The notes under the pieces: model-generated
What the model saw: only the letters and a program-made list of their open reading frames with translations
Databases searched by the model: none
Told to the model about the DNA's origin: nothing
Origin: Aquilaria yunnanensis
Lineage: Eukaryota; Streptophyta; Magnoliopsida; Malvales; Thymelaeaceae
DNA: 64,000 bases
NCBI GenBank assembly: GCA_039654915.1
Contig: CM077596.1
Location: forward strand, 73,595,751 to 73,659,750
Reading direction: 5' to 3'
Part shown: positions 1,122 to 62,544 of the stretch, piece after piece
How the letters are laid out: every line of letters begins with the position of its first letter
Numbering within the stretch: position 1 is the first letter of the stretch
Made by a program: the position numbers and the translations under genes

Positions 1122-1852
1122 ATGGCCGGTCGAGCGATTAGTACATTGGTAGTGGTCCTGGCCTTGGCTGTGGCGTCGTTTTGGCCGGCAGCCGATGCCC
1201 AGTCGAACGGTTGCACCAGCGTGCTTGCTAGCTTGGCTCCTTGTCTGAACTACATAACTGGCAACTCTACGACGCCGCCGTCTTCCTGTTGCTCGCAGCT
1301 TTCCAGTGTCGTCCGTTCCAACCCCCAGTGCCTCTGCCTGGTCCTAAACGGCACCTTAGCTTCGTCGCTGGGAACTACCATAAATCAGACTCGTGCCTTG
1401 GGACTTCCCGGGGCCTGCAACGTCCAGACTCCTCCCATTAGCAGCTGCAACGGTAATCAATTAATGGCAGTATATACCAGAAACTAGACATATTTTCTGT
1501 CCAATATTTATATGTCATGTAATTGTTTAACTGGTTTCATATGCACAATTCCAGCTTCTTCTACTGCTGGTGCTCCCGTTGGAACCCCAAGCTCTCCAGG
1601 TACAATAACATTTGTGGACTTTCCTGGGTTTGCGCCCCTTTTCTCTATGAATTCTGAACTGATTCAGGGTTGATTAATTATTGTAATTTTTCTTGTGTAG
1701 GAGTGAATACTATAGCACCATCGCCGACATCATCTGATGGGAACTCTGCAACGTTGTCGATTTCTCTGCTAATCCTGCTACTGTTTATAGCATCGTCCAC
1801 TTCAGGCTTCAATCTGGTTCATGTTTCTTATGTACATCTGACACATATTTGA
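1122..1852 (+). CDS. LTPG: GPI-anchored non-specific lipid transfer protein (LTPG type), 3 exons
   Basis: Exons are 1122-1452, 1555-1599 and 1701-1852. They total 528 nt (175 aa plus stop), all junctions keep frame and all introns are GT-AG. Residues 1-26 are a secretion signal ending near ADAQS. Then comes the eight-cysteine motif of the plant nsLTP/2S-albumin fold in the expected order C-x9-C-x14-CC-x12-C-x1-C-xn-C-x9-C, ending at SSC. A short Ser/Thr/Pro/Gly linker encoded by exons 2 and 3 leads to a hydrophobic stretch (SISLLILLLFIASS), the usual GPI-anchor signal. The family binds lipids at the outer plasma membrane and wall and exports cuticular wax or takes part in suberin and sporopollenin deposition; the exact substrate cannot be read here. 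Odd point: about 17 residues follow the hydrophobic core, where GPI signals normally end. The gene stands alone. Confidence 0.88.
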
Positions 1853-5352: not shown

Positions 5353-5357
5353 GTAAT

Positions 5358-6598
5358 TGTGGCAACGTGCGGGTCGTTTTCGGGAGTCGCCACCAATCGG
5401 TTTTCGCTCAGGTCGATTGGATACCTTAAAATATGGTCTGCGAGAGTTCGGGGATCGGGAGTACGGTTACGCTAAAACAATATTGTTATAGCGCCCAAAA
5501 TTGGCACCTTAGTTGATTTTAATTTTGTTTTACTTTGCTTAAAAAAATTTTCAGTTAATTTAGATATTTTAACTGAATTAGTCGAAAATGTTGATTTTGG
5601 TAATTAATTCGGGTAAAATTTTATACTTCCGAACCATGGACTCTGCCGAGTCATTTGGACACGGAATTTGATGAAATTTTAAAGAATTTAATCCATATCG
5701 TTAATATGGATTTTTATCTTTTTATTTAATTCATTTTAAAAAGGTTGATATTTTTCAAACCGTAGATCCTGCCGGATCATTCCGATATGGAATTTAATTT
5801 TAAAAAAAATTATTATTAGTTAATTAATTAATAAATGGCCCACATAGACCGAAATTTTCTAAAATGTGATTTTTATTTTTAATATGTCAAATTAATTTTT
5901 AGATTAATTATTAAAAGGTCTATCTAATCTAATTATATAATATTAATTTCTAAGCTAATTTATGACTTTAATAAATCCAAACAAAACTATAAAAGAAAAC
6001 CATAAGTGAAACAATGATCAATTTAGAAATCAGAACAAAATTAGAGGCTCAATTAGATAAATCAAATAAATCCAGGGGTAAATTATTTATTAAAAATATT
6101 TATCTAACCTAATCATACAATTCTGCTTAATAGTAATTCCTAAGTTAATTCAAGCTTTTAATCAATTGATCAAACAAAATCACAGAAGAAAATAAAACTA
6201 AACTGTAAATCAAGACAACAAATCTCAGATGACCAAATCAAATAAATTCAAGGACAAATTATTTATTAAAAATTATTTATCTAACCTAATCGCGTAATTA
6301 AGATTAATGTTAATTTTTAAGTTAATTTATGTCTTTAATTAACTGAACAAAAGCATAATAGAAAATAAATGGACTTATGGCTTAATTGTAAATTAAAACA
6401 AAATTAAAGTCTCAAATTGACAATCAAATAAATCCAAGAGTAAAAATTAAAATTATGCCAAAATTACGAACTTTCATATTAGATTCGAACAACGAGTTGA
6501 TTTGCGATTGGGGTTTCATTTTTTTTTTTTTAATTTTTAATTTTTTTTTGTTTGGTTTGCTTTAAATAAAATCAATTGATATCCAAACCATGGATTCT
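5358..6598 (-). repeat. Left (3') LTR, truncated on its inner side
   Basis: This copy matches 14346-15632 almost base for base and then stops abruptly at TGGATTCT, where LOG-like sequence begins. The outer end TGTGGCAACG abuts the target duplication. The missing part corresponds to 15633-16988 of the right LTR, including its TGTTGACACC start and GC-rich part. Confidence 0.85.
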
Positions 6599-6816
6599 GG
6601 GATAATGCCTAGAACTTGACTTCCTCCTAAAGATGCTGCTGATGCTACGCCTCCCATTAATCCGACACTACCTCCTCCATAAACTAAATGTATTTTACGC
6701 TCAGCTAATACTCTACCCAAATGGTTGGCTGCCTTTAAATATTCTTCATCTTTTCCAGGAAAAGCCCCAGAAAATACACAAATACTTCAGGATTTACGAG
6801 TTGAGGTTTTCTCCAT
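6599..6816 (-). pseudogene. Truncated LOG-type (cytokinin riboside 5'-monophosphate phosphoribohydrolase) gene
   Basis: Read on the minus strand, ATG at 6816 opens a frame that resembles the N-terminal half of the LOG family, which releases active cytokinin bases from nucleotide precursors. Visible family features are the N-terminal strand ICVFSG (CVFCGS in active LOGs, so the cysteine is changed), [28 protein letters not shown] and SVGLMG, and the strand VLGIIP. The frame has a premature TGA at codon 10 (6787-6789). It ends abruptly at 6599, where the truncated LTR begins, so the catalytic PGGxGT motif is missing. It lies just downstream, in element orientation, of the viral-like genes, so it appears to be transposon cargo. 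It cannot be functional as it stands. The family assignment is strong. Confidence 0.78.
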
Positions 6817-6889
6817 TCCTATCCTTACTCTTGTGAGAAAAGAGGATATATTTATAGAGATGAAGAGAGAAGGCAATAATTTTATTTTC

Positions 6890-7440
6890 AAGAATGGATA
6901 CATTATTGCCAGCTATTCACAGTAGTCACGAATATGACTCTGGTCAGGTATAGGTATACTATCGTTAAAAGAGGAGGAAAATTTTCAAAATAGCTGCTAG
7001 CATGTACAGTAGTCACTACTGTAGCTTACGTCAGGAGTAGGTACGTGATTGTTGGAAGAGAAGGAAAATTTCAAAAGTGGCAGCTATATACAGTAGTCCG
7101 TGTCAGGAGTGGGTACATTATTGCCAAAGGGGAGGAAAATTTCAAAAGCGACAGCTAGCACGTACAGTATCGTGACTATGGCTCATGTCAGGAATGGATA
7201 CATTATCGCCGAAAGGGGAGGAAAATTTCAAAAGCGACAGCTAGCACGTACAGTAATCGTGACTTTGGTTCATGTCAGGAATGGATACATTATCGCCGAA
7301 AGGGGAGGAAAATTTCAAAAGCGACAGCTAGCACGTACAGTAATCGTGACTTTGGTTCATGTCAGGAGTGGATACATTATTACCAAAAGGGGATGAAAAT
7401 TTCAAAAGCAACAGGTAGCACGTACAGTAATCGTGACCTT
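6890..7440. repeat. 87-bp tandem repeat array
   Basis: About six copies of a unit reading GTCAGGAATGGATACATTAT...AAATTTCAAAAGCGACAGCT...ACGTACAGTAATCGTGACTT. Unit starts at 7101, 7186, 7273 and 7360 are spaced 85, 87 and 87 bp; earlier copies are degenerate. Because 87 is divisible by three, the repeat itself keeps a frame open at 7100-7396, which is not a gene. Related motifs (GTACAGTAATCGTGACT, then CTTCCACTGGTTTTACGTCC) sit after the 3' end of each viral-like copy. The array therefore probably grew from the 3' spacer of that unit. Confidence 0.8.
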
Positions 7441-7487
7441 GTTCCGTCTTCTACTGGCTTTGCGTCCAGTAACGGCTTCAATGCTTT

Positions 7488-8035
7488 CTATGAATCGGTG
7501 ATTTGCATCTCATCTAGCTTTTTCACAAACTGGCAAACAGGGTCGTTTAGGGTTAGATTCCCAAGACTGTAACGTTCTCGTTCTTTTTGGAGAATTATCC
7601 ATAATCCAACAACCTCGAATTGCACTATTCCACAAGAATGCGCTTCAAGAACCTCTCGGATATCTTCTAGAGATTCCTTACGCAAGCCATTCTTAATGAA
7701 TCTTATTCTATCATTACGATTTCTGGTGATCACTCCTGGAGAACGACATTTATTGCCGCAAATCCACCATCCACAATTATGACAAACGCCTAGCCTCTTT
7801 GCTCTTCTTTTTTGGCATAAGCGCTTTTACCAAAGCCGGGCATACGGGGAAAGAACGCTTCTGGAACTTCACCAGCTGAACGAACCTTAGCTTCAATTAG
7901 CCACCGCACATTATCAGGAATGCCTTTGTGCATAAATACTCTGAATCGTTCACATCTAGCTTGATAAATCTTTTTAAGAACATTTATTGGGAAGGAAAGA
8001 AAATACTTTCGTAGGGCGGAAAGAGAAGACTCCAT
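7488..8035 (-). pseudogene. Viral-like cysteine-rich nucleic-acid-binding protein, copy 1 (frameshifted)
   Basis: This is the third member, in element order, of a tandem family. From the ATG at 8035 the protein matches copy 2 closely through the basic stretch GKSAYAKK. A 1-nt deletion near 7806-7813 (relative to copy 2) then shifts the frame. The reading resumes in another frame through the C-terminal half, which ends KKLDEMQITDS. Family features and viral resemblance are as described for copy 2. The broken frame means no full-length product. Confidence 0.6.
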
Positions 8036-8251
8036 TGATAAAGGAGGCAAAGAAAGAAATTAGTGATTGTAGGAAACGAAAATAACTAACACATATTTAT
8101 AGTGATGAAAGGGATAATGTGTTAATTACACTTACAAAAGCAAGTACATTATTGTCAAAAGAAAAGACAAATGACAGCTTATATGTACAGCAATCATGAC
8201 TGTGACTCTCATCTTCCACTAGTTTATGTCTAGTAACGGCTTCAATGCCTT

Positions 8252-8800
8252 CTATAAGTCGGGGATTTGCTTCCCATCCAGTTTTCTCACAAACTGGTAA
8301 ACAGGGTCATTAAAAGTTAGATTTCCAAGACTGTAACGATCCTGTTCTTTGCGGAAAGTCCACCATAAATCCATAATTTCCCATTGCACTATTTCACAAG
8401 AATGTGTTTCAAAAGTTAATAGGATATCATCCAAAGATTCCTTACGCAGGCCATTCTTGATGAATTTTCTTTTATCTTCATGATTTCTGGAGATGTATCC
8501 TAAAAAGCGACATTTAGTATTACAATTCCATCGTCCACATTTATGACAGACACCTAGCCTCTTTGCTCTTCGCTTTTTGGCATAAGCGCTTTTACCAAAG
8601 CCGGGCATACGGGGAAAGAACGCTTCTGGAACTTCACCAGTTGAACGAACCTTAGCTTCAATTAGCCACCGCACATTATCAGGAATGCCTTTGTGCATAA
8701 AAACTCTGATTCTTTCACATCTAGCAAGGTAGATCTTTTTAAGGACTTTTATTGGAAGAGAAGGAAAGTATTTTCGCAGGGTAGAAAGAGTAGAATCCAT
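8252..8800 (-). CDS. Viral-like cysteine-rich nucleic-acid-binding protein, copy 2 (intact)
   Basis: A 182-aa basic protein, open from ATG (8800) to stop. The N-terminal 70 residues look helical (LRKYFPSLPIKVLKKIY, VRWLIEAKV). They lead into an arginine/lysine arm (GKSAYAKKRRAKR, about residues 70-82) and a compact zinc-finger-like cluster CHKCGRWNCNTKC (C-x2-C-x4-C-x3-C). After it comes SRN...K.KFIKNGL and a 60-residue C-terminal extension ending in SLGNLTFNDPVYQFVRKLD. The order Gly-x-Ser-x-Tyr-Ala, Arg/Lys-rich arm, CxxC finger and a short SxN...FIxxG tail is the layout of the small nucleic-acid-binding proteins of carla-, viti- and related Betaflexiviridae, several of which suppress RNA silencing. 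The N- and C-terminal parts have no viral match that I know of. It is transposon cargo. Alternatively it is an unrelated zinc-finger family; a profile search would decide. Confidence 0.6.
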   Translation of the reverse strand: MDSTLSTLRKYFPSLPIKVLKKIYLARCERIRVFMHKGIPDNVRWLIEAKVRSTGEVPEAFFPRMPGFGKSAYAKKRRAKRLGVCHKCGRWNCNTKCRFLGYISRNHEDKRKFIKNGLRKESLDDILLTFETHSCEIVQWEIMDLWWTFRKEQDRYSLGNLTFNDPVYQFVRKLDGKQIPDL

Positions 8801-9063
8801 TAATGAGAGAAGAATTTGAGAGATGATGGAAAGGAATTAGTTATTGAAGGAAACTTAGATAACCGACTGGAAAAACATGCATTTATAGCGATGAAATGGA
8901 TAACGTGTCGATTACACTTAGGAGAGCATGTACATCTGTCAAAAGAAAATGCAAACTTTTCCAAATATAACAAACTGTATGTACAGTAATTGTGACTGTG
9001 GCTCACATCTTCCACTGGTTTTACGTCCAATAACGGCATTAACAGCTTCTATGAGTCGAGGAT

Positions 9064-9597
9064 TTACTTCCCATCCAATTTTCTTACAAGCTGGCAAACA
9101 GGGTCATTTAGGGTCAGATTCCCAAGACTGTAATGATCTCGTTCTTCATGAAAAGTGCTCCATAAACCAAGAAGTTCACATTGCACAGATCCAAAAGAAT
9201 GCGTCTCAAGAATCAATTGGATATCATCCAACGAGTCCTTACTCAGGCCATTCTTAATGAATCGTATTTTATCTTCTCGATTATCAGAGATCATCCCTAA
9301 AGAACGACATTTAGTATTACAAGTCCACCGTCCACATTTATGGCAGACTTGTAACCTTTTCGCTCTTCGCTTTTTGGCATAAGAGCTTTTGCCTATACCA
9401 GGCATGTGAGACACAAATGCCTCTGGGATTTCACCTGCCAGACGAAGCTTGGCTTCGATTAACCACCGCACATCCTCAAGGATTCCTTTGTGCATCAGAA
9501 CTCTTAATCGTTTACAGCGAACTTGGTAGATCTTTTTAAGAATGTTCATTGGGAGAGAAGGAAAATATTTTCGTAAGACAGAAAGAGTAGGATCCAT
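9064..9597 (-). CDS. Viral-like cysteine-rich nucleic-acid-binding protein, copy 3 (intact)
   Basis: A 177-aa paralogue of copy 2, open from ATG at 9597 to its stop. It keeps the helical N-terminus (LRKYFPSLPMNILKKIY), the basic arm (GKSSYAKKRRAKR), the finger CHKCGRWTCNTKC and the C-terminal SLGNLTLNDPVCQLVRKLD. It differs from copy 2 at many scattered residues while every finger cysteine and the basic arm are kept, which is what one expects if the protein was under constraint after duplication. It is the first copy in element orientation, so it is nearest the 5' LTR. Its unit, with the flanking spacer, repeats every 760-800 bp. Function is inferred only: nucleic-acid binding, possibly silencing suppression. 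Confidence 0.6.
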   Translation of the reverse strand: MDPTLSVLRKYFPSLPMNILKKIYQVRCKRLRVLMHKGILEDVRWLIEAKLRLAGEIPEAFVSHMPGIGKSSYAKKRRAKRLQVCHKCGRWTCNTKCRSLGMISDNREDKIRFIKNGLSKDSLDDIQLILETHSFGSVQCELLGLWSTFHEERDHYSLGNLTLNDPVCQLVRKLDGK

Positions 9598-9749
9598 TTT
9601 CTAGAGAGAAGTAAAAGAAAGAAGAGAGGAAAGAATCAGTTATTATGGGCAACTGAGAGAACCAACTTGAGAGTCACAGAGTACCGTATCCGCCGCTTAA
9701 CCGGAAAAGTGGATCCTACTTTATTTTGATGTGAATGATATTTCTTATA

Positions 9750-10130
9750 TTTGATATTCCATCCAGCTGACATCGATCCAGTCCTTGATTATTGAATCCA
9801 TTGTCCGCTTTTGACAAATTTTCAACGACAATATTTCTTGATGTCTGCCTTATCTTTGACCACAGCTATCTCTTATCTTGGATGCTGCTAAGCTGGCATC
9901 AATCCTGTCCTTCCAGGTGTAGCCTCGATTATTGAATCAATTGCCAGGCTTTTGACAATATTGTCTACTTTATATTTTTTGATATCTGCCTTATCCTTGG
10001 CTATAGCTATCTCTTATCTTGGATACTACTAGCTGGCGTCAATTCTGTCCATTCAGGTGTAGCCTCGATTATTGAATCGGTAGCCAAGATTTTGACAATA
10101 TTGTCTACTTTATCCTTGAATTCCTGATGC
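9750..10130. repeat. 140-bp tandem repeat, about 2.7 copies
   Basis: Units share GTAGCCTCGATTATTGAATC, TTTTGACAATATTGTCTACT and ATAGCTATCTCTTATCTTGG. The clearest unit starts are at 9918 and 10058 (period 140); an earlier copy is degenerate. It lies in the leader of the LTR element. No coding potential was seen. Confidence 0.75.
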
Positions 10131-11149
10131 GGGTTGGTCCCGCATATTAGCTGTGTATCCAGTGATAGATTGGTAAGAGCTGATATTATTGAGATCTCAG
10201 CTTATACTGCTGTAACGGTGCGGTGGATGTGTTTCCCATTTTATTCCTATCATGTAAAAGTCATGCATGCATGATGTGAAATGCATGAATGCAAAGCATG
10301 TGTAATTGATGGCTTTTTTTTGTATGGATCTAGTTCTTTATGTCTTTGTTTTACTGGATCCTCTTTGTGATGGCCTTCTTGGACTATCATTGAATCTCTT
10401 TATGCTTTCCAGCTTTTGTTCGCTGCCTCAAAAGCCCAACTCTTTTCAAAATCCCCTTTCTTTGACTTGTTCTTGAATTTTGGCCTCAATTTCTTTAAAG
10501 TTGGCCCGCCTCATAATTTATATCTCTTTCGGGTACTCATCCATTGTCATGGATTTGATACCATCAAAAGCTTTACTTCCAATGTCTGCTTTGCCCCTTT
10601 TCTTGTGACCGTGCCGACACTTACTTATCCCAATGTTATAATCTGAATGATTGCTCTTCCTTGAACTCATGTTTTGATCCATAAGACTTGCCCCCTTGTC
10701 TATTGAACTTCTTTGTTGGCAGTACTCCTCTTACGCTTCGTAGAGACTACTTTGCTCCCTTGAATATGGTATTTATGTGGATAAAAGGTATCATCTCGCC
10801 TTTAATTTAACAGAAGGTCGAGCATTTCTAGACTTTTGTGATGGCACTTGATCGTAAATTTCTCTTACAAGAACCACATCTTATTAAAGAAAGACTCAAG
10901 CTATATCCTCACTTTTAAGTCTACACACATTAATGAATAATGGTTTGGCCTTAAAGAAAAAATTTCATCAATTTGCAAAGCTTGACAAAGTAATTTATGG
11001 TCTTTGTTTTTAATTAAAATATCCTGCCATTCTTCCTTTTCCAACTCGAAGACATAAACTGCGCAAGGCAATAAGGTATAAACATGATTCACAAGGATAG
11101 CCTTTTAGCTGAATGAGGATGATATCGAGAGGTAAATGTTAGGTGTGAG

Positions 11150-11665
11150 GAAAGTTAAGTTTGAATGTTTTTTTTTTTGTGGCAGTCTTTTAGCTGAATG
11201 AGAATAATATTAAGAGGTAAATATTAGGTCTAAGTAAAGTTAAGTTTGAGTGGTGTGAAAGAAGGGTATTTTAATACTACTCGTGAGCAGTATTAAATAA
11301 GGTAGAAACATGATTCATAATGATAGTCTTTTAACTGAATGAGGATGTTAGGTCTGAGGAAAGTTAAATTTAAGTGGTGTGAAAGAATGGTCTTTTAATA
11401 CTACTCGTGAGCAGTATTAAATAAGGTAGAAACATGTTTTACAATGATAGTCTTTTAGCTGAATGAGGATGATAAGTCTGAGGAAAGTTAAGTTTAAGTG
11501 GTTTGAAAGAATGGTCTTTTAATACTACTCGTGAGCAGTATTAAATAAGGTAGAAACATGTTTTACAATGATAGTCTTTTAGCTGAATGAGGATGATAAG
11601 TCTGAGGAAAGTTAAGTTTAAGTGGTTTGAAAGAATGGTCTTTTAATACTACTCGTGAGCAAATT
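11150..11665. repeat. 124-bp tandem repeat with an internal hairpin
   Basis: Units starting GATAGTCTTTTAGCTGAATG at 11322, 11446 and 11570 are spaced exactly 124 bp, with one degenerate copy before them. Each carries AATACTACTCGTGAGCAGTA(TT), a near-perfect inverted repeat that could fold into a short hairpin. It lies in the leader of the LTR element. Confidence 0.8.
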
Positions 11666-11854
11666 TGATTATGATGAAAAACTCAATAGTGATGACCTCA
11701 AACTTGCCACTCTTTCCAGAAAGTTAAACCTCATCTGTTGCCCCCCAACTATCGTGGTCTTTATGTATGCTTGGCTTGAAAGTTGCTTTTGTGTTCTAAA
11801 CCGCCTTTGCAGGTTTTCAGTCTAGAATCCATAGCTCACTTTTTTTTGTTTTTT

Positions 11855-12260
11855 CTTTCTTTGGCTCTAACTTGAGCTTCGTTTCTTTTCTTTTTTTCCT
11901 TTTTTTGTTTTTGTTTCCCTTTCTTTTTTTTTTTTTTTGTGAGCTATGGTGATGACATACTTGATAACTCTCTTGAAGTGAGATGACTCAAGTGGCCTTG
12001 CTTGCTCGTGCTTGTTCTCAGTTTTTTTGGTTTTGAATTTTCCCTTGTTGGCTTTTTGATGGAAGGGATGAACTTTTTCCTTTTCGGAGTTTTTATTACA
12101 GAGAACCGAGATCATAGCCTTCTTGAAATGAGATGATTCAAGTGGCCTTACTTACTTGTGTTTGCTCTCAGTCTCTCTTTTTTTTTTTGGTTTTGAATTT
12201 TCCCTTGTTGGCTTTTTGATGGAAGGGATGAACTTTTTTCCTTTTTTTTTTTGGAATTTG
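11855..12260. repeat. Duplicated T-rich segment of about 150 bp
   Basis: The block containing TTTTGAATTTTCCCTTGTTG and GGCTTTTTGATGGAAGGGAT occurs twice (about 12010-12080 and 12180-12240). Between and around the copies are long T tracts (11839-11937) and GAGATGA-TCAAGTGGCCTT duplications. Open frames here are low-complexity artefacts. Confidence 0.6.
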
Positions 12261-12499
12261 TGTTTCGGAAAACTGAGAATTTTTTTTGTTGTATTGAGCA
12301 TTTGTGAGAATTGGGAGGCCACTGAAGTCATTTAATATGAGAGCTACCTTGTTTGGAAGCTAACCCCAGACTTCTTGCAAGGATGTTGATAACCACTATG
12401 AATTCTTTTTTTTGAGAGTTGGGGTGCAACATATGAAATCCTTCTTACTAGATTTGACAACACTTTCAAGATCGCCACTATTAAATCTCCCTTAACTTT

Positions 12500-12860
12500 T
12501 TATTTTCACCCACGAGTAATATCATTTAGAAAGCAAAGTGTGATAGCAATAATGGATAGTATAATGGAAAGGAGTGAGAGATGAATGTAAAAACGGATTT
12601 TTTGGTAAGAAGTGGTAGAATGTGTAGGTGTAATAATTGAATTTTTGGTAAAAATTGGTAGAATGTGTAGATGTAATAATGGAATTAAAAAGTGGTAGAA
12701 TGCACACATAACGTCTTTTTGTTGGAGAACAAAAAGAATTACCGGTTGTCAAAAAGTAAAATGTGATAGCAATAATGGATAGTATAATGGCAAAGAGTGT
12801 AAAAATGGAAAGTAGTAGAATGCACGCATTACATCTTTTTGTTGTACCAGAAAAAGAATA
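12500..12860. repeat. Short degenerate direct repeats in the LTR element leader
   Basis: Segments such as GATAGCAATAATGGATAGTA and AAAAGTGGTAGAATGCACAC recur several times. They create overlapping minus-strand frames rich in Ile, Leu and Phe that I do not regard as genes. Confidence 0.5.
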
Positions 12861-14325
12861 GCAGGTGTCCATCTAACAAAGACTACACCCTAGATTCTGG
12901 ACTAAATCTAGGAGATTTTTACTATTAGATTACTTTTGCAAGCTTTCAAAGATACAAGTTTATTCAAAGGATTCTCTGTCATTCAAAAGTGTGTGCGGAC
13001 TATTAGGTCAGATCTGACTTGGAGTCCTTCCAAAATCAATGTAATTCTAGCTCGAAATCTTCACTTTCAATTACCAATCACATCGGGCCTAGCAACTTGG
13101 ACTCGACCAACTGTTGGACCTTGAGTTTCAATATGACAGAATTTTCAGTTACATTTGGGATTTGGGTCACACCAACTTGGAAGAGAAGGTCACTTGGTCT
13201 TTACTACTATTGATATAGATGATAGCAGAATGCCTTCTTCAGCAAAGACTGTGATTAACTTTCCTTCAAAAATGAATTTCATTTTTTGGTGTAATGAGGA
13301 GGGAATTGCTCCGGCCATATTTTCTATCTTGGACTCTATATCTATGAGACGTCCTTCGGTTTGTTCTGCCATTAGTCTTGTTTGGATCTGAGTTGGATAT
13401 CGGTATTGAGGTCCAATTTTAGTGTTTTTAAAGTAAGATTTATTTTATTAGACTTTACATGCATTTGACTGATGTGATGGATGCATGCAATATAAAATGA
13501 GATTACGTTCTTATCAGATTTTATATACACGTGATTGATGTAATGGAATGCATGTAATGAGATTATTTTTATCAGACTTTATATGTTCGTGATTGATGTA
13601 ATGCATGCATGCGATGAGCGGGTTTGATTATCAACTATTGTGGAACTTTAAGACTTCTAGTTTTCATTAGAAAGATTAAAAAGTTAGCATAATTTGATGC
13701 GTGGTTTTGATGCATGAAGAATAATTGCACAAGAAAGATAAGGTTATTAATAAGTTAAATAGCAATTAACAACTCATGAAGTATTATGGATAAATAAGTT
13801 AAAACCATACGAAGAAAAGTGTATAGTAACAACACAGCATAACAAGGATATGCTTATGGTGTTGGTAAAAATGGTAGAAATTCTATGGTCAGTTCTATGG
13901 TTAAGTGGGGAGTTCTATATGCATAAGGTGGCTTATAAAAAAGGCAAGGGATAGTTCCCGAATCCCGTCACTAAATCATAGTGACGGCCCGATTCCTTAC
14001 CCTCTAGGGTTAATGTAAGGAATGGATTAATTCGAGTCGTAGCTTTTCGTGGGCCCATGCAGAGACTAACCGTCTCAGAAGGCAATACACTACTTTGCTA
14101 CTTTGAAACCGGTGAAGGCTTGGAGACCGTGGCCTCACAAGGACAGCAACACCAATTCCGCTTAGAAAGAATCGTGTTTGATTTAAGGAAGCTCGGGTAT
14201 AGAGCTTCATTTTGTAAATGCATTATGCATGTTTAGAATAAGTAAATATAACATATAAATTTACATAAAAATAAACAAAACAGAACAAAATAAATCAACT
14301 TTTAGGCTTGACTCACTAACCGTGT
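12861..14325. other. Leader region of the LTR element, no gene recognised
   Basis: This is unique sequence between the repeat blocks and the primer-binding site. A degenerate repeat around GATTGATGTAATGCATGCAT occurs at 13440-13620. Short open frames at 13019-13391 have no family features. In retroelements this stretch is the untranslated leader and packaging region, so structure rather than coding is likely. Confidence 0.5.
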
Positions 14326-14342
14326 CCCCAGTGGAGTCGCCA
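14326..14342 (-). other. Primer-binding-site-like sequence
   Basis: Just inside the LTR end, the minus strand reads TGGCGACTCCACTGGGG. From memory this closely resembles the complement of the 3' end of a plant tRNA-Arg with its CCA tail: the first 10 bases fit perfectly and then two mismatches occur. Alignment to the host's tRNA set would settle the primer. Its place next to the LTR fixes the element's minus orientation. Confidence 0.6.
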
Positions 14343-14345
14343 AGC

Positions 14346-16988
14346 TGTGGCAACGTGCAGGTCATTTTCGGGAGTCGCCACCAATCGGTTTTCGCTCAGG
14401 TCGATTGGATACCTTAAAATATGGTCTGCGAGAGTTCGGGGATCGGGAGTACGGTTACGCTAAAACAATATTGTTATAGCGCCCAAAATTGGCACCTTAG
14501 TTTATTTTAATTTTGTTTTACTTTGCTTAAAAAAATTTTCAGTTAATTTAGATATTTTAACTGAATTAGTCGAAAATGTTGATTTTGGTAATTAATTCGG
14601 GTAAAATTTTATACTTCCGAACCATGGACTCTGCCGAGTCATTTGGACACGGAAGATTTTGATTCCGAACCATGGACTCTGCCGAGTCATTTGGACACGG
14701 AATTTGATGAAATTTTAAAGAATTTAATCCATATCGTTAATATGGATTTTTATCTTTTTATTTAATTCATTTTAAAAAGGTTGATATTTTTCAAACCGTA
14801 GATCCTGCCGGATCATTCCGATATGGAATTTAATTTTAAAAAAAATTATTATTAGTTAATTAATTAATAAATGGCCCACATAGACCGAAATTTTCTAAAA
14901 TGTGATTTTTATTTTTAATATGTCAAATTAATTTTTAGATTAATTATTAAAAGGTCTATCTAATCTAATTATATAATATTAATTTCTAAGCTAATTTATG
15001 ACTTTAATAAATCCAAACAAAACTATAAAAGAAAACCATAAGTGAAACAATGATCAATTTAGAAATCAGAACAAAATTAGAGGCTCAATTAGATAAATCA
15101 AATAAATCCAGGGGTAAATTATTTATTAAAAATATTTATCTAACCTAATCATACAATTATGCTTAATAGTAATTCCTAAGTTAATTCAAGCTTTTAATCA
15201 ATTGATCAAACAAAATCACAGAAGAAAATAAAACTAAACTGTAAATCAAGACAACAAATCTCAGATGACCAAATCAAATAAATTCAAGGACAAATTATTT
15301 ATTAAAAATTATTTATCTAACCTAATCGCGTAATTAAGATTAATGTTAATTTTTAAGTTAATTTATGTCTTTAATTAACTGAACAAAAGCATAATAGAAA
15401 ATAAATGGACTTATGGCTTAATTGTAAATTAAAACAAAATTAAAGTCTCAAATTGACAATCAAATAAATCCAAGAGTAAAAATTAAAATTATGCCAAAAT
15501 TACGAACTTTCATATTAGATCCGAACAACGAGTTGATTTGCGATTGGGGTTTCATTTTTTTTTTTAATTTTTAATTTTTTTTTGTTTGGTTTGCTTTAAA
15601 TAAAATTAATTGATATCCAAACCATGGATTCTAACCAAACCACCCGGATATGGATTTTTTGTAATTTACTTGTTTCCTAAATTCATCATCGAGTTTTCAT
15701 TAAAACCCGTTCAAAATTGAATCTTGTAAATATGATCTTTTTAAATGTGTTATGTAAACATGAGTTCTAAACTTATACTAATAATGAAAAGTTAAAATCA
15801 ATATATAAGTAAATATCTGATCTAACCTAAACATATAATTTTATATTAACTCATCAACAAATTCATGGTCCAAAATAATAAAACAAGCAATTGAACAAAA
15901 GTAAACCAAACTATAAAAAAATAATGCTGTCAGTGATTAATCTGCAAGATAAAAATATGTTAGTCACTTAAATGGATGATACAAAAAAGTAAAAGGACTA
16001 ATCAAGAGTTTTACCCTAAGGATAAAGAAAACAGATTTTTGACTCGGTCAAAGCAAAGAAAGAACGCGTCTTTCTTCCTCCTGAGAGCGCAACAGCGAAG
16101 GGAGCGGCAGAGGGGGCAAGTTGACGTGGCTGGAGGGGTGAGGGACGGCTGGCGCAAGCAGGAGGCTGTCGGCTGACGGCGGGGAGCGAGCGGTGGAGCG
16201 TCAAGATGCAACAGGCGCGACGGAGTGGCTGCTGAGACAGGAGGAAGGCAACACGGCGTGGTTCGGGCGCGAATCGGCAAAGGGAGGCCAGAGGTGGCGA
16301 CGCGGCAGCTGGAGGGGAAAGCTTTTCAGGTGGCGTGACGAGAGGGGTGCGACCAGCAGGGAGACGACACGAGCTGGCGCAGAGGATGAGTGAGTTCAGG
16401 CGGAGTTGGGCAGGAGGGAGGCGAGGTCAGCAGGGGCCGGAGACGGCGCTGGCGAGTGAGAGAGTGAGAAGCAGAGCCAATGAGAGAGAGAGCTGATAGG
16501 TGATCTATGAAAGAGAGAAAGTTCTGGGAGAATCGAGAGAGAGAGAGTTGTCCGTTTTTTTTTTTTAGAGAGAGAGAGCAGAGAGAAAGGGAGAGCCTCC
16601 AGGAGAGAAAAGATCAGAGAGGGACAGCGTAAAAGAGAGGGATAGAGAACCTCCGGGGCAAAATTATTGAGATGAGGGAGGTCCAGCTCTTTTGTCTGGT
16701 GTGGAAAAATGTAAAAGGGGGAGGAGACTTTAAGGGGAAGGTTCAACCGGGGGGAGGAATTATCTCATTTTTTTAACTAATTTAACTTAATTTTAATTTA
16801 ATTAATTAGTTAATTTATAATAAAATTTTTTTCTTCATTTCATTTTTTTTAAATAAAATTTTAATTAGTTAACTAAATAATAATAAAATTTTTTTAATTA
16901 ATTTTTTTAATTAAATTTTTTTTTAAATAATAATAATAATGATAATTAAAAATTTTGTTTACGGCTCGGACGAAATTGGGTGTCAACA
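14346..16988 (-). repeat. Right (5') LTR, complete, 2643 bp
   Basis: In element orientation it starts TGTTGACACC at 16988 and ends ...GCCACA at 14346. It contains an AT-rich part, a GC-rich segment (16050-16430), GA-rich repeats (16480-16640) and a 44-bp-scale tandem duplication (CCGAACCATGGACTCTGCCG at about 14618 and 14662) that the left LTR lacks. Its start matches the sequence ending at 40826, so related elements exist elsewhere in this window. Confidence 0.85.
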
Positions 16989-22438: not shown

Positions 22439-22736
22439 CCCTCTTAACTTCTTCCAGTTTCTGGATAATCCCTTTAGGTGCCTCGAAAAAAGACATGAAG
22501 TCCAGGGGCAGTGCTAACTGAGCTGATATAATCTTTTTGGTATAGTAAAAAATTATCAAACTTTGTTACTACTCAATTTTTTAGATAATTTTATGACTGC
22601 AGTTTTTTATGGCTTGGTCCCAATCTTTCAACTACACCTGTCATTGTAGTTTACTGTTTATAATTGAAATTGTGCAACTCTGAACTAGTTCTTACACATT
22701 CACATGTATTTTCTTTTCCCTTTTCTCAGATAGCAC

Positions 22737-23837
22737 ATGCCGGTGCAACAATCCTACATAAGTGAAGAGTCAATGAGAGCAGATGAAACCTTGGTTAGTA
22801 TGTCTGGATTAATCGAAGGCCTGCCGGATGCTGTTGCCCTAAGATGTCTTGCACGAGTTCCCTTTTACCTCCATCCCAAGTTAGAGCACGTTTCTCGTTC
22901 ATGGCAAGCTGCCATACATAGTTCAGAGTTCTTGAAAGCTCGTCAAGAGGTTGGTGCATCTGAGGAACTACTTTGTGTGTGTGCCTTTGACCCTGAAAAT
23001 GAATGGCAGTTATATGACCCACTTCGAGACATTTGGATCGATATCCCTAGACTTCCTTCGAAAACAAGGCACCTTGCCCATTTTGGTGCAGTCTCTACTG
23101 GAGGAAAGCTTTTTGTGCTTGGTGGTGGCAGTGATGCTGTTGACCCATTGACTGGTGACCAAGATGGTAGTTTTGCAACCAATGAGGTCTGGTCATATGA
23201 TCCAGTAGTACGCCAGTGGGCGCAGCGTGCATCAATGCTGGTACCTCGTTCTATGTTTGCATGTTGTGTTTTGAATGGGAAGATCATTGTCGCAGGTGGT
23301 TTCACCAGCTGCCGAAAGTCCATTTCCCAAGCAGAACTCTACGACCCAGATAAAGATGTCTGGATCCGGTTACCTGATCTCCACCGAACCCATAATTCGG
23401 CTTGCTCAGGTATTGTTATCGAGGGGAAGGTCCATGTGTTGCACAAAGGTCTGTCAACAGTTCAAGTCCTGGATTCTCTGGGACTTGGTTGGGCAGTTGA
23501 GGATTATGGTTGGCTTCAAGGTCCAATGGCAGTAGTCCAGGGGGCAATTTACGTGATGAGTCATGGACTTATTTTTAGGCAGGAGAAACAACTGAGAAAA
23601 GTGGTGGTTTCAGCATCCGAGTTCCGAAGAAGAATTGGGTTTGCAATGGTTGGACTAAGAGATGAAATCTATGTAATGGGAGGGGTCATCGGTCCTGACC
23701 GTTTTAACTGGGACATTAAACCAATGGCAGATGTCGATGTCTTGACAGTCGGGGGTGACAGACCAATTTGGCGTCAGACAGCTCCGATGACAAGGTGCAG
23801 AGGAACAATTATGGGGTGCACGCAGCTAAGAATTTAG
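22737..23837 (+). CDS. SKIP30: F-box/kelch-repeat protein, SKIP30 type
   Basis: A single coding exon of 366 aa. Residues about 24-68 are the F-box (LIEGLPDAVALRCLARV ... LEHVSRSWQAAI), the surface that binds SKP1/ASK in an SCF ubiquitin ligase. Residues about 95-350 form kelch repeats with the typical GKLFVLGGG, GKIIVAGGF and EIYVMGGV double-glycine motifs, each followed by a conserved Tyr-Asp-Pro and Trp. The DAVDPLTGDQDGSFATNEVW insertion and the high similarity along the whole length point to the SKIP30 orthologue (At3g63220 in Arabidopsis, from memory). In that lineage the protein is linked to turnover of wax- or phenylpropanoid-pathway enzymes; I infer this only from the family. The ATG lies 7 nt after an intron acceptor. 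No defects were seen. Confidence 0.9.
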   Translation: MPVQQSYISEESMRADETLVSMSGLIEGLPDAVALRCLARVPFYLHPKLEHVSRSWQAAIHSSEFLKARQEVGASEELLCVCAFDPENEWQLYDPLRDIWIDIPRLPSKTRHLAHFGAVSTGGKLFVLGGGSDAVDPLTGDQDGSFATNEVWSYDPVVRQWAQRASMLVPRSMFACCVLNGKIIVAGGFTSCRKSISQAELYDPDKDVWIRLPDLHRTHNSACSGIVIEGKVHVLHKGLSTVQVLDSLGLGWAVEDYGWLQGPMAVVQGAIYVMSHGLIFRQEKQLRKVVVSASEFRRRIGFAMVGLRDEIYVMGGVIGPDRFNWDIKPMADVDVLTVGGDRPIWRQTAPMTRCRGTIMGCTQLRI

Positions 23838-47146: not shown

Positions 47147-50100
47147 CCTGAAAATAAGGTAAAAGAGAGAATATTAGAAATTCGTTAAGAACTAACAGTA
47201 AATATCATGTGAGTGTGGAGGGAAAAAGAGAAAATGCATGAAACTGAAACATCAAGATAGTAAATAAGCTTGTAAACCTGTAAGAAATCAATTTTTTTAA
47301 GAAAATCTGTGTACACAATATTTTTTGTGGTATTTGGTGGTTGGTCATCTGTTTTTCTGATGAGAATTTTCAGGCCATTCGGTGATGTTGCTCTTGATAA
47401 TGCAACATAAAGTTGTCCATGGCTGAAGATAGGTTCGGGGAGGTAGATTCCAATTCTGTTCAGGGACTGGCCTTGGCTTTTGTTGATTGTCATTGCGTAG
47501 CATAGCTTGATTGGCAGCTGTCTTCTTTTAAATATAAAAGGAAGTCTTGGATCTTTGTGTGTGAGCGAAATCCGTGGAATATATACTTTTTCCCCAATTT
47601 TGGTTCCTGTTATCAATTGGACTTCTATCACCTTTGTTAGCAGCTGTGTCACAATCATTCTTGTGCCGTTACATAAGCCAAGCTGCTGGTTGATGTTTCT
47701 GAGAAGCATAACTGGTGCGCCAACTCTCAGCTTAATTTGATGGTTTGGAAAGCCACTGAAACTGAATGTGTTGAGTAACTCAGTTGGATATAGTACTTCA
47801 GCTTCTCCATGGTCACCAGAGAGGGGAGAAATTGAGTCGGAACTTGTATATATCATGAGGTCGCCATCTAATAGTGATAAGATCTGCTCATTAATGGAAT
47901 CTGCTGTGTCATTCTTTGGACATATTATAGCTCTGTTAGACAGTTGATAAGGGTCTGGATTTTTCAAGCTATTGTCATCATACACAAAGCTGATTAGTTT
48001 CTGAATACCGTTGTTATCATCTTGGATGAGAAATTTTTCTGGTATTTCAATCCATCTAGAATCTTCATTTTCATCACTCATTGACTGACCTATAGCACCA
48101 TCTCCTACTGCAAGAAGCCACTGTGCAAACTCATGTATTTCTGCTCTGTCATTGTGATCAATATCAGGCTGAAGCAGTCTCATATTCTGTTTCAAATAGT
48201 AAATCCTGAAGTATTTCCATAATGTTGATGATACAATTGAAGAGGCTAAAATGTCAGCTTTTGTTCCCAATGGGTTAATAGGAAGTGTCTGCCGAAAGTC
48301 CCCCCCTAGCATGATTGATTTACCTCCAAATAATAATTCTGGTCTCTCAACAATGTCCTGGAGTGTTCTGTTGAGTGTTTCAAAGCATTGCCTATGATTC
48401 ATAGGTGATTCATCCCAGACTATTAAATCAGTTTCGAATAATAATTTTCCTAAGTGTGTTCCTTTTTTTATGCTGCATACTGACTCATCTGTTAAATCCA
48501 GTGGAAGCTTGAAACGTGAATGTGCTGTTCTTCCAGAAGGAAGCAGCAATGATGCGATGCCAGATGAAGCAACAGCAAGAACAATTTTTCCTTGTGCTCT
48601 AAAGCCAGTAATAATTGTTTTCCATAAGAAAGTTTTTCCTGTACCTCCATGACCATAGATAAACATTAGCTGCTGTGTTTTAGTTTGAGATGCATGCATA
48701 ATAATATCATGGATGGTTCTTTGGTCTGAATTAAGCAGTGGAAATAACTTTTCATGTTCTGTTGATAAAGCCTGGATGTCATAGTTTTTCTCCTCCATCA
48801 ACATTTTATTGTTTAATTCTGATAACAATTCAGCAGGAGGCATTGGTAATCCATAATTTATTAGTGAGGTAGAACATGAAGCAAGTAGATTCTCCATTTC
48901 ATATAATGCATAATCATGAAGGTATTGATCATTTAACTCGAGATTGGCATTTGAAAACCTTGATCTATATTTGAAAGCTATATCATCAGTCATTTTTTGC
49001 CAATTATTAGTCCAAAGAGCAACTGGATTTGAAACCTCACAATATAAAAGCATATGGACGAAGAGTGACCTGAGATCTTTTGATGTAGCCCAAACAGATG
49101 CTTCCTTCATGGCGAACTCCCATTCGTTATCATCCTGAAGCAAACCCATTGCCTGACAGGCTAATCTGTGAGTAGGAAAGACAACGTTATTTAATGTTCG
49201 AACATCTACAAATGATTTGCAACCTTTTTGATGAGACAATAACATTCTGAGATAGAATAATTCACCAGAACTTGGGTGGATATAAATTAATCTCCCAATG
49301 GAACTTTTCTTTTTCTGTAATCTGCGAGTCCAAAATTTGCCATTGTTGTGCCAAACATATTCAGTGGGGAAATCAATATATGTCAAGTGTCTTGCAGTAG
49401 GATCAGCAGTGTTTGTCAAAAACCATTCTGTTAGTGTTGTTTTTCTGTTGAGAGGGTTATTCATCACAGATTGTAAATGTTGATTAGAACGAAATGTTAC
49501 TTGCTGCATCATTTCTAAATGCACAGATAAAACTTGCACAGCAGGCTCTCTCATATGTATGTTAAACTCAAACATTCTCCAACATGCTTCGTAAGGACAT
49601 ATATAACGACAATCAAGATAATTTTGAATCTCATTAATCTTGTTTTGTTGAGTATGACTTATATCATAAGAGTCATCAACTGATTTCACAATTTTAGCTC
49701 TAACACGATCTGCCCCTTTTGAGATATACTTGAAGAGATATTTGATAAGCATGCTCCACCCACAGAATTCAACATTAATATGTGCATTAAAGGCTAAACA
49801 TAAGTCAATGTTGTATGGAACAACATATGCATTATCGAATCTAACTCCATGTTTAAGAATAAAGTTAGCTGTATTTCTTCTTCGGTATTGAATATATCCA
49901 TTCTTGTCAAATAGAGTAATTGGCTGATACCTTCTGGGAAAAGATTTTGAGCATGCATTCTCTTGCATACATGGAGCTGTTGGTCTGACCAAACCGCAGG
50001 GGCCATGAATCATGAATTCAGCAACAACAGTATGGGCGTCTGGATTTGCTTCTCTGTCAGGAATCTCAGCTGAAATCATCTTGTCTATGTCTGTTGGCAT

Positions 50101-52372
50101 TTGGATTTTGCTTTTTTCCTCAAGCCACAGCACTGTGTGGCAGTGTGGGAGGCCTCTTTTCTGGAATTCTATAGTATACAGCACTGGAATAGATAATAAA
50201 AGATGTTATGTGGTGGAGGATGAATAAGATATATAAAAAAACATCAAAGCTATAGCAGAATTTAGTTGCAGAAGCACCTGCCGTCACAGTGCCGAAGGGT
50301 TTTTGATCTCGTAAGTAAGCTACAAATTTTTGGACTTTAAGCTCGAAGACTCGGTCAATTATATCTGGTCTATCTTCTGGCTTACTCTGTGGAAATTTCT
50401 GAAGGTGTCTCGTTATTTCAGGCCACTTGACATTACAGGTGAATGTAATGAAAAATTGGGGATTTCCATGGACTCTGCAAATTGCAAGGGCATCTTGATA
50501 ATGCTTGTACATGTAGCGAGGGCCTCCAGTGAAAGAAGCTGGCAATATAATTCGGCCGCCAATATCTGATCCATCTTGGTCGCCTCTTAGGATCGCATCA
50601 TGAATTCCTTGAAAATACTCATTTCTTAAATTTCCCTGGTTAGCTTGAATATAATCCAAACGATCCTGCTCTACACAAATATAAGCATTAACAACATATT
50701 GTTGAAAAAGGCGACCAGCATGTGTTATGAGGGAGAAGGAGTTTAGGCGATCATGGAATTGAAAAGAATAAAACATTCTCATACTCACTCGTCTTCTTTT
50801 ACCCATGGATGCGTGATTAGTCTGAGCAAACCAAATGTCAATTCTAAAACCATCTTCACCAAAAACAAATATAAGAGGGAACTGTAGAGCCATGTATGAA
50901 GGATGCAACTTGTTAATTCTTTGTAAAGCACCATCCTTAAATTGAATCACAATATCATGGTCATTGGTTTTTTTTCCAGTAGATTCAAACACAATTGCAC
51001 CTATGTCATTTGAACTTGGGAGGACATATTGTGATTCACCTCTTTTATGATATAGCCGAATCTGAAATTCTGGAATTTCAGTATTGTTGAATCTATCTCT
51101 TGCTGTTCTCAGAAGTTTGACCAAAACATTATGGTTGTCAAGCATTGTGATCAATTCTGTGATTATGTCAGGTTGCAAAACTGAAGGCTCTTCACGTCTG
51201 AAATGCTGCAATCTATTAGAAACCTCATTATCAGTATCATATATATAAAGCTGCAGAAATCTCGGATCTTCACCTGGTAATGGGCATAAAGAGCCCATTC
51301 TATGAAATACCTGACCCTGCACCTTAAAAACATAGGGCCCTGAGCCATCATTAATCATTTCATCAATCTTTGCTCCAAAAGATGTCATAGCAAACATAGA
51401 ATTATAGGCTCGAATATTATCCCGAAAATGCCTATTTCTGTATAAATTTTTAATCAAATCAGGAGGTTCCTGTGCAGGCTGAAGCGTCACCTTACCACCA
51501 TTACAACATCGACTATACCTAACCTGACCATTGTGAGATAATCGCTTAACCCGTTCATCAAACCAAAATAAAGCATGGCAGTACTGACATTGCTGATCAC
51601 AATCTCCTAAATCAATATACTTAGGTCGAATATCTGAAATCAAAAACAAAAAGAGCAAAAAAAAATTATAATTCGCATAGAATATGCAATGAGTAAGTTT
51701 ATCATAAACCACTGATATACCTTTTGATAATAGATCAGTGTTCTGAGAATGGCCTGATGCTTCAGCGAATGTGCTGTTGAATGAGCATAAAGGAGAAGGG
51801 TTATCCCTAGAAGCTTCAAAGATGTCAATTACCTCAGATTGTGCAGTCATGTACTCTTTTGTTGAACACTGAGAAGACTGATCTGTGATACCCTCAGCAT
51901 GTCCCATAGTAGAAGTTTGAGGTTTTGGAGGAAGTTGGGTGGGTAAAGGTGCATATTGTTGATCACAGAATAAAGAATAACCAGAAGACATTTGGTGGAA
52001 TGCAGTAGTAGTGTTTTTGTCAGCATGACTAAAACCAGAAAGATGTGGGTTGTTGCATTGACTATAGGATGTATCTTTAGAATTAGGGGTTTCAGCTGGC
52101 AGAATTTTCTCCAAAGAACTACTCCTTATCCTAAACAAATCTCTCCTACGCGTATTTTCAAAATGAAAATCATCCACTGAAATTGATTGATTATAATAGT
52201 GTGGCACATGAAGGGAAGTATGTGAATTTGTTTGATCAATGATTCTGTGTCTTTTTTTCTTAGTTGGAGTTGAAGAGCAACCAGTATTTTCGTTTGAACC
52301 AGTAACCATTGTATCATAACATATAATATCAAATTTTTTGTCAAGCAAATTCTCATTCAATCCACTCGCCAT
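47118..52372 (-). CDS. Helitron RepHel (HUH rolling-circle endonuclease plus Pif1-type helicase), 4 exons
   Basis: Exons 52372-51721, 51633-50278, 50183-47278 and 47147-47118 total 4944 nt (1647 aa plus stop), with short GT-AG introns of 87, 94 and 130 nt. Exon 2 carries the N-terminal helitron-like domain (MALQFPLIFVFGEDGF region) and Rep motif 1, FFITFTCNVKWPEI. Exon 3 begins with YTIEFQKRGLPHCH, the HUH metal-binding motif, then the two-tyrosine motif IKYLFKYISKG, the catalytic pair that cuts and joins DNA strands. The rest of exon 3 is a complete superfamily-1 Pif1-like helicase: Walker A GHGGTGKT, Walker B LIVWDESPM, GGDFRQTLP, VGAPVMLLRNI, and the C-terminal INKSQGQSL and YVALSRA motifs. 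No stop or frameshift interrupts the spliced frame. The tiny last exon is inferred from splice sites only; without that splice the frame runs on to 47185. Confidence 0.85.
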
Positions 52373-52379
52373 ATGAATG

Positions 52380-61150: not shown

Positions 61151-61524
61151 ACCCAATTTTCACATCTTATATTACAGCTCCGTTGAGGAGAGGAGCAATT
61201 CCGCTAACACAAAGTAGAATTTCAAGTACTAGTGAGAGTGATTTTGAAGGAAAAGGCTTTTAGAAATCTGATTTTGTTCAAGAATCAAGTAGCAATACCT
61301 TTAATACAGAAGGACATTTATATATTCAGGTGTAAGATCCCAAGCAGCAATCAGGATTATGTTCTCTGATCTCTGATCCAACTCCCAAGATTTTCAGGTG
61401 CGTTCAGTTCAGCTGCATAAACATTTAATCAGCTAGCTAGTTCCAAAGATTCTCTTAGTTTACAAAACTCAACTTTAATTCGGTTATCCGTTCTCTGTTT
61501 GAAGGCTAAAGAGATTATTGAGTA

Positions 61525-62544
61525 ATGCTGAGGAACAGGCCAAGAGCAGTGACAACAAGCAAGCAAGCTGCTTTAATGGCTGATCAGAGTCCCCAGCCAT
61601 CACCAACCCAGAAAAGCTACGCGAGACAGATTCAATCTTTCTTTGGCTCACCGAGATTCAAAGATTTCACTGCTAAAGTTCTGTACGACACCGACCCTGT
61701 TAAAAGCCCCACTTCGATTCTAGACACTAAGCCCTTCTTTTCTTTCGGTTTCGACATCACCAGCCAGCACAAATCTCCAAATATTTCCCCGGGGAAGCCT
61801 CAAAAACCCCGGGAGAACTTGGATCCGAAAAGAATCGGCCTCGCCCTCATCGACGCAATCTCCGACAACCTGCCCGCCGGAGACGAAAAGGACGCTACGT
61901 TCGGACCCCACAGACGGGTTTTGTTTGGAACCAAACTGAGGGTTGAGATCCCTCGTGATTCTCCTACTGTGTCTCCCAAATCGCCGACCGATTTCGGGAT
62001 CAAAACCAGGAATCTACGGCCTCCCTCGTGTTTTCCTGGAATCCAAACAGGGGATGCCGTTTCCCCAACCGCTTTCACCGGATTCATCCCTGTGAGCGGA
62101 ATGGAGCTGTCCGAGGATTACACGTGCGTGATTTCGCATGGGCCGAATCCCAAGACGACTCATATATTCGATAACTACATAGTAGAAAGCCACTGGGTTT
62201 TGCCCGAACCCAACCCTGCTCCGGGGAGTTTTCTAAGCTTTTGCCACACATGCAAGAAGAATCTCGAGCAGAAAAATGACATTTTCATCTACAGGTTCGC
62301 TCCTTCATCCCCAACTTGTAGACATTGCTGCGCTTGTAAAATTTTTAACTTTTGTTAATAATATGTTAGCATCATCAAAGAGATAAAGAAAAATTTTTGT
62401 TAGTAAAAATTAACCAAGATCAAATCTTAATTTGATTAAGATCTATCTCTTAAATTTTTTTATTGTATGCACAGGGGAGAGAAGGCTTTCTGCAGCCAGG
62501 AGTGCCGTTACCAAGAAATGCTCTTGGATGGGGAGGAGAGTTAG
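61525..62544 (+). CDS. FCS-like zinc finger (FLZ, formerly DUF581) protein, 2 exons
   Basis: Exons 61525-62294 and 62475-62544 total 840 nt (279 aa plus stop), split in the arginine codon of IYRGEK by a GT-AG intron. The long N-terminal part is low in motifs. The FLZ finger spans the intron near the C-terminus: FCHTCKKNLEQKNDIFIYR from exon 1 and GEKAFCSQECRYQEM from exon 2, with the cysteine pairs CxxC and C-S-x2-C that bind zinc and the FCS signature. FLZ proteins are plant-specific scaffolds that bind SnRK1 kinase subunits and take part in energy, sugar and stress signalling. The MLRNRPRAVTTSKQAALMAD start and length fit the longer FLZ members (FLZ8/10/11-like). A leader intron probably begins at 61398 after TTTTCAG, with the acceptor near 61504. 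The gene looks intact. Confidence 0.9.

Follow-up and report, generated by a model that had tools for sequence, protein, structure and literature searches.

The window analysed here, a stretch of 64,000 nt of the Aquilaria yunnanensis genome (GCA_039654915.1, CM077596.1, positions 73,595,751-73,659,750 of the forward strand), encodes three tandem copies of a small basic protein on its minus strand between 7488 and 9597, which we call the NABP genes (Table 1). Their place and strand are as a sequence-only reading had claimed, and so is their state: copies 1 and 2 are open, and copy 3 falls into two pieces. The array is made up of direct repeats spaced 764-765 and 797 bp apart, in which a 300-nt repeat family of three members (77% and 79% identity to the reference copy) and a 231-nt family, also of three members (90% and 76%), can be recognised; this similarity is far beyond chance. 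The arm and finger, described in the same reading as the constant parts of the protein, are indeed so in a larger alignment: conservation reaches 90% or more of 115 aligned sequences at S70 and K74-K79 in the arm and at the finger's four cysteines, C84, C87, C92 and C96. Both NABP1 and NABP3 are followed after their stops by a motif, GTCAC[AG]ATTACTGTAC, that appears again in the 87-bp tandem repeats (window 7101-7441, 8996), where three units contain the motif found 3' of the NABP1 stop. The Citrus gene model P0092 has a comparable out-of-frame reading of the sequence 3' of an NABP stop.

Table 1. Features of the window, with positions counted from its first letter.
Feature	Position	Strand	Remarks
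NABP copy 1	9064..9597	-	open, 177 aa; Carla_C4 26.2 bits, Viral_NABP 26.0 bits
NABP copy 2	8252..8800	-	open, 182 aa; Viral_NABP 27.5 bits, Carla_C4 27.0 bits
NABP copy 3	7488..8035	-	frameshift, giving two open pieces
TATAAAT box 5' of NABP copy 2	8881..8887	-	offset -87, identical in 10/10 sister copies
TATAAAT box 5' of NABP copy 3	8095..8101	-	offset -66, identical in 10/10 sister copies
87-bp tandem repeats	7101..7441	.	between NABP3 and LOG
LOG-like gene remnant	6599..6816	-	in-frame stop near start; cut off by 3' LTR
3' LTR	5358..6598	-	truncated; the LTR start typical of the family, present in four sister copies, is absent
5' LTR	14346..15660	-	LTR alignment, primer site, target duplication
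primer-binding site	14324..14342	-	also in six sister copies, one with one base different
gag remnant	13190..13372	-	start and far end of sister gag-type ORF, middle missing
124-bp tandem repeats	11228..11661	.	5' half of element
target-site duplication, left, GTAAT	5353..5357	.	matches 15661-15665
target-site duplication, right, GTAAT	15661..15665	.	matches 5353-5357
Helitron	47185-52387	-	PIF1-like helicase 273 bits, Helitron_like_N 147 bits
lipid-transfer protein gene	1122-1487	+	LTP_2 70 bits
Kelch-repeat protein gene	22734-23837	+	Kelch_1 91 bits
FLZ-type zinc-finger protein gene	61522-62358	+	26 bits

The NABP genes lie within an LTR element that occupies 5358-15660 and is bounded by a 5-bp target duplication. 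Its two LTRs (5358-6598 against 14346-15632) align over 309 nt at 99.0% identity and over 972 nt at 99.5%, and the primer-binding site next to the 5' LTR is one that we take to be of the tRNA-Arg type. On the minus strand the order is 5' LTR, primer site, NABP1-3, tandem repeats, LOG remnant and 3' LTR; since the element reads on this strand, the NABP genes are in sense. The LTR pair, the GTAAT duplication and the primer site thus bear out the location that the sequence-only reading had given to the array, whereas the orientation of the genes, the gag-type ORF, the LOG-like partner and the relatives in other plants had been overlooked there. The copy in the window is a truncated, damaged member of a large family, with the usual start absent from both LTRs and the LOG remnant joined directly to the 3' LTR.

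The family was further characterised through ten other genomic copies, chosen by the copy-2 protein and each read in two pieces, one 5' and one 3', with additional flank read for seven of them. LTR pairs are present in six of these seven, and none was found for the copy C5a. In the four sister copies read at both ends, the LTRs start TGTTGACACCC, a G-rich tract lies 5' of the 3' LTR and 5-bp duplications are present in every case, while the 5' LTRs of six sister copies all end GTTGCCACA, after which comes the primer site. Identity between matched LTR tracts is 97.7-100%, which suggests that the insertions are recent. Taken together, the ten sister copies have a gag-type ORF, the three NABP genes, a LOG-like gene and a 3' LTR, and they lack pol. 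The gag-type ORF is 594-601 aa long in four of the ten and rearranged to 381 or 734 aa in three; the other three have no gag ORF above 300 aa. Two full-size gag ORFs score about 46 bits against PF03732 (gag), and in the 734-aa form a stretch resembling a protease falls narrowly short of its cut-off. Neither a pol-sized ORF nor a YxDD box was found in the ten 5' pieces, and a pattern search in six frames of the same pieces gave no CX2CX4HX4C zinc knuckle. The gag-type ORF does have C/H-rich stretches, which in our estimation resemble those of Tat/Ogre gag proteins.

Of the ten sister copies chosen by the copy-2 protein, nine have an open copy 3, and when five more loci (L003, L005, L006, L007 and L008) are counted with these ten it is open in 14 of 15 sister loci; NABP1 has 182 aa in 9 of the 15 loci and is cut short at 152 aa in 4 of the 10 sister copies. 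A first look at the whole genome gave 8655 candidates for copy 2, of which 150 were scored and 145, that of the window itself included, have no stop, and 3666 candidates for LOG, with all 150 of those scored being without a stop; both scored lists hold the best protein matches only. The amplification that had been proposed for the NABP-bearing element is thus seen in its many genomic copies and recent insertions.

Using Pfam profiles, we found that copies 1 and 2 exceed the curated cut-offs for both Viral_NABP (PF05515, 23 bits) and Carla_C4 (PF01623, 20.9 bits). Two more copies of the family do so as well, namely an open NABP3 (27.1/22.8 bits) and another NABP1 (31.9/28.6 bits), although the scores are modest throughout (22.8-31.9 bits across the four copies tested). 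The Viral_NABP match spans residues 39-120 of copy 2, which is more than the arm and the finger. Neither piece of copy 3, when searched on its own, gave a Pfam match at E<=10. Among 54 relatives, 51 match Carla_C4 and 49 match Viral_NABP at E<=0.01, these being matches rather than members above the curated cut-off; the only other family encountered is SHQ1, in two. A host zinc-finger family is not favoured, as the Pfam families returned at E<=10 are the two viral ones and Prok-RING_2, the latter below its cut-off. A single-sequence search recovered 116 proteins at E<=1 among 148 candidates, and a profile search 830 at E<=10 among 4835 candidates, the best 120 of which were listed. The finger spacing CX2C-X4-C-X3-C is found in 108 of 173 relatives, with a last spacing of X4 in 12 and another in 1, and the remaining 52 do not fit the pattern; it would be shorter than the spacing in viral NABPs. 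A PDB sequence search returned two gap-junction chains (E 0.59 and 0.95). The context of an RNA virus was sought by a scan of viral contigs (query A1), where tblastn confirmed none of 34 patterned stretches; the NABP gene was located in a chromosomal LTR element and not in a plus-strand RNA virus genome.

When a first, weak structure model (mean pLDDT 59) was searched against BFVD, a library of viral structures, all 18 named proteins among the best 20 matches were flexivirid, with none of the matches reaching E 0.001. A better AlphaFold2 model from a deeper alignment, still weak at a mean pLDDT of 68.4, places helices in residues 2-53, a helix of the arm in 71-81 and further helical structure in the C-terminal part. 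In its BFVD search no match reaches E 0.001, the best being 0.010; 27 of the best 30 matches are named, and 26 of these 27 come from beta- or alphaflexivirids. The names of 24 of the 26 designate a nucleic-acid- or RNA-binding protein or an RNA silencing suppressor, the other two being '15kDa protein' and 'HP', and the 27th named match is citrus tristeza virus p23. Since the search scores sequence as well as shape, this ranking is not independent of the Pfam result. A fold search of the PDB gave a single match at E 6.4. With the Pfam cut-offs passed and the viral structure ranking in agreement, a relationship to the flexivirid family of nucleic-acid-binding, cysteine-rich proteins is supported, as the sequence-only reading had suggested for the Betaflexiviridae-type proteins.

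The search for the same gene in other plants, which that reading had called for, did bring up relatives. All named organisms among the listed NABP matches are plants: Xanthoceras, Citrus, Acer, Diplodiscus, Populus and Rhamnella. Gene models in which an NABP arm is fused to a LOG gene are found in Citrus (P0081, P0092, P0114), Acer (P0111) and Diplodiscus (P0115). Further, there are NABP and LOG matches on contigs of equal length and source (8723 for P0005/P0128 and 4511 for P0237/P0158), and each of these pairs would lie on one contig, with the genes inside LTR elements there. In a tree of 127 rows, built from open copies with NABPs of 165-200 aa, the three Aquilaria NABP genes group in a single clade together with P0001 and P0002 (100/97); as they cluster together, the triplication looks lineage-specific.

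The partner gene, which resembles LONELY GUY (LOG) phosphoribohydrolase genes, lies 3' of the NABP genes. A LOG-coding stretch is present there in all ten sister copies, complete from its methionine (209 aa) in six, and the one copy tested scores 106 bits against PF03641 (Lysine_decarbox/LOG) and 48 bits against PF18306, and it matches Arabidopsis LOG structures with E-values of 1.6e-51 and 2e-47. The PGGxGTxxE motif is present in 9/9 scored own copies (the tenth has no ORF long enough) and in 109/120 relatives. Residues were scored in the numbering of CgLOG, whose catalytic residues are R99 and E122 (PMC4979012), with 111 of the 120 relatives usable. All nine scored own copies keep both catalytic residues, and among the 111 relatives 108 keep R99 and 109 keep E122, while the prenyl-pocket residues M96, H97, K100, E125 and W129 are all changed in the nine own copies. 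Among the relatives, K100 and E125 are changed in 107/111 each, W129 is kept in 107/111 and M96 in 84/111. The retention of the catalytic residues together with the changes at K100 and E125 suggests that the LOG chemistry may persist with an altered substrate; going by these residues, cytokinin may not be the substrate of the LOG-like protein. The LOG relatives P0117-P0236 have an LxLxL within their last 14 residues in 102/120 cases, a tail that to us resembles the EAR repression motif; the open own LOG copies end differently and have no LxLxL tail.

We also compared substitution rates, using for dN/dS, as for the trees, open copies only. In the set restricted to pairs with dS>0.03, dN/dS is 0.220 for NABP1 (95% interval 0.114-0.382; 17 pairs), 0.114 for NABP2 (0.034-0.254; 32 pairs), 0.220 for NABP3 (0.127-0.352; 68 pairs) and 0.082 for LOG (0.024-0.228; only 4 pairs), from 7, 11, 13 and 5 distinct sequences; the open-copy totals of 11, 18 and 16 count two places twice, L002 being C1a and L004 being C3a. 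Between NABP paralogues within one element the ratio is 0.21-0.34. A smaller set of all pairs with no dS filter gave 0.92 for NABP1, 0.118 for NABP2 and 0.175 for NABP3. The copies were picked by protein match, which makes their open frames a non-random sample and biases the NABP2 dN downwards. A second sample of seven other copies, chosen for their likeness in non-coding sequence to the damaged copy of the window, has the opposite bias: NABP3 is kept at 182 aa in two of the seven and extends to 218 in one more, no NABP3 start was found by patterns in three and one stops after 8, while LOG is kept at 209 aa in three of the seven. The element family is thus a mixture of conserved and decayed copies. 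Purifying selection is shown among the open NABP and LOG copies: dN/dS is 0.08-0.22 with intervals below 1, and other intact copies exist, so that the outcome which the sequence-only reading had named as refuting its proposal, a ratio near 1 with no such copies, is not what is found; nor are the others that it named, a firm placing in a host zinc-finger family or a lack of viral similarity.

What the NABP might do for the element has to be considered against what is recorded for its viral counterparts, which act as silencing suppressors and pathogenicity determinants (PMC12172455). It is very probably a nucleic-acid-binding accessory protein that serves the element. Our leading reading of its putative main function is silencing suppression, which we hold tentatively, the balance leaning somewhat against it. 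Each NABP gene would be its own transcription unit, and its product would bind RNA or DNA through the basic arm and the Cys4 finger and weaken small-RNA silencing of the host in the cells that transcribe the element; elements with open cassettes might thereby have been amplified more. The family is a Ty3/gypsy-type one without pol that carries a sense cassette of three NABP genes and a LOG-like gene; the account as a whole, in which the NABP would weaken silencing, has in our view only slightly less than an even chance. The widest version, in which a rosid-wide retrotransposon lineage took up a flexivirid-type suppressor and a respecified LOG enzyme as a selected, two-gene anti-silencing offence in dividing cells, is doubtful as a whole.

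Chrysanthemum virus B p12 is both a weak suppressor and a transcription factor that induces hyperplasia (PMC12172455), and hence suppression is not the sole reading of the NABP. The p12 precedent lends weight to an alternative in which the NABP is a nuclear transcription factor that drives division, as would LOG, so that more dividing cells transmit the element; the presence in the cassette of a LOG-like gene with its two catalytic residues retained fits this too. Against it stands the changed prenyl pocket of all nine own LOG copies, on account of which cytokinin may not be the substrate; we consider this account unlikely. Either activity would suit a retrotransposon, and on our analysis suppression is the more likely of the two. 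A further alternative is that the NABP is an accessory nucleocapsid that coats or chaperones the element RNA for packaging or reverse transcription; in its favour are the basic arm and the Cys4 finger, and the result that the pattern search gave no zinc knuckle in the ten 5' pieces. Yet the gag-type ORF already has C/H-rich stretches of its own, and three downstream genes, two of them with TATA boxes, would be an odd arrangement for a stoichiometric capsid partner; we regard this role as improbable.

Many copies are broken and NABP1 stands at 0.92 in the smaller, unfiltered set, as might be expected if NABP and LOG were passenger cargo, captured sequences of no use to the element. That the dN/dS intervals lie below 1 for all four genes, that the paralogues within an element show similarly low ratios, and that joined NABP-LOG gene models occur in other genera argue against this, and we give it little credence. 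Even less probable is that the viral likeness reflects convergence on a basic arm and a short Cys finger rather than descent: the modest scores and a finger that would be shorter than the viral one agree with it, but the Viral_NABP match extends over residues 39-120 and the named matches of the BFVD ranking are nearly all flexivirid. If the NABP does weaken silencing, as the suppression reading has it, the element would offer a direct example of a plant transposon with a virus-type counter-defence, the small-RNA system targeted being the one that controls both viruses and transposons. As the genome holds sister copies with open NABP1, NABP2, NABP3 and LOG, the proteins can be tested unmended.

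A LOG gene in LTR elements is already published; an NABP gene in such elements was not found in the literature searched, a limited search of open-licence papers mostly at the level of titles and the starts of abstracts. Steinbauerova is said to have described, in 2011, Athila-like elements with similarity to LOGL4. The LTR-retrotransposon consensuses of Citrus and Populus with a YgdH/LOG domain (PMC9289625, citing Steinbauerova 2011) share the LOG-family gene with the elements described here, with neither NABP nor Carla_C4 named in the text of section 12 of that source. The same source records an orchid Ty3/gypsy element with an m6A-demethylase (AlkB-type) ORF, which is likewise a gypsy element carrying a domain also reported in flexivirids; theirs, however, is an enzyme domain in one ORF and not an arm-finger protein. 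Plant LTR elements with extra ORFs (PMC6317226, PMC7264820, PMC11963269) resemble ours in length, gag, tandem repeats and ORFs near the 3' LTR, but the extra ORFs here are in sense and virus-related; in the Retand survey, by its account of that region, no sense ORF of the 3' region encodes a known domain. Endogenous sequences of non-retroviral RNA viruses, including a betaflexivirus, are known from plant chromosomes (PMC3136472) and are comparable as chromosomal sequence related to RNA viruses, whereas that betaflexivirus case is replicase-like, and the terms NABP and nucleic acid binding are absent from the main text of that paper. Finally, the cysteine-rich proteins of the Betaflexiviridae and Alphaflexiviridae (PF05515, PF01623) share with the NABPs the profile match, seen for four copies, the basic arm and the Cys4 finger; in contrast to them, the proteins described here are encoded in an LTR element, in three tandem copies, and at about 182 aa they include a C-terminal part that is long and conserved.
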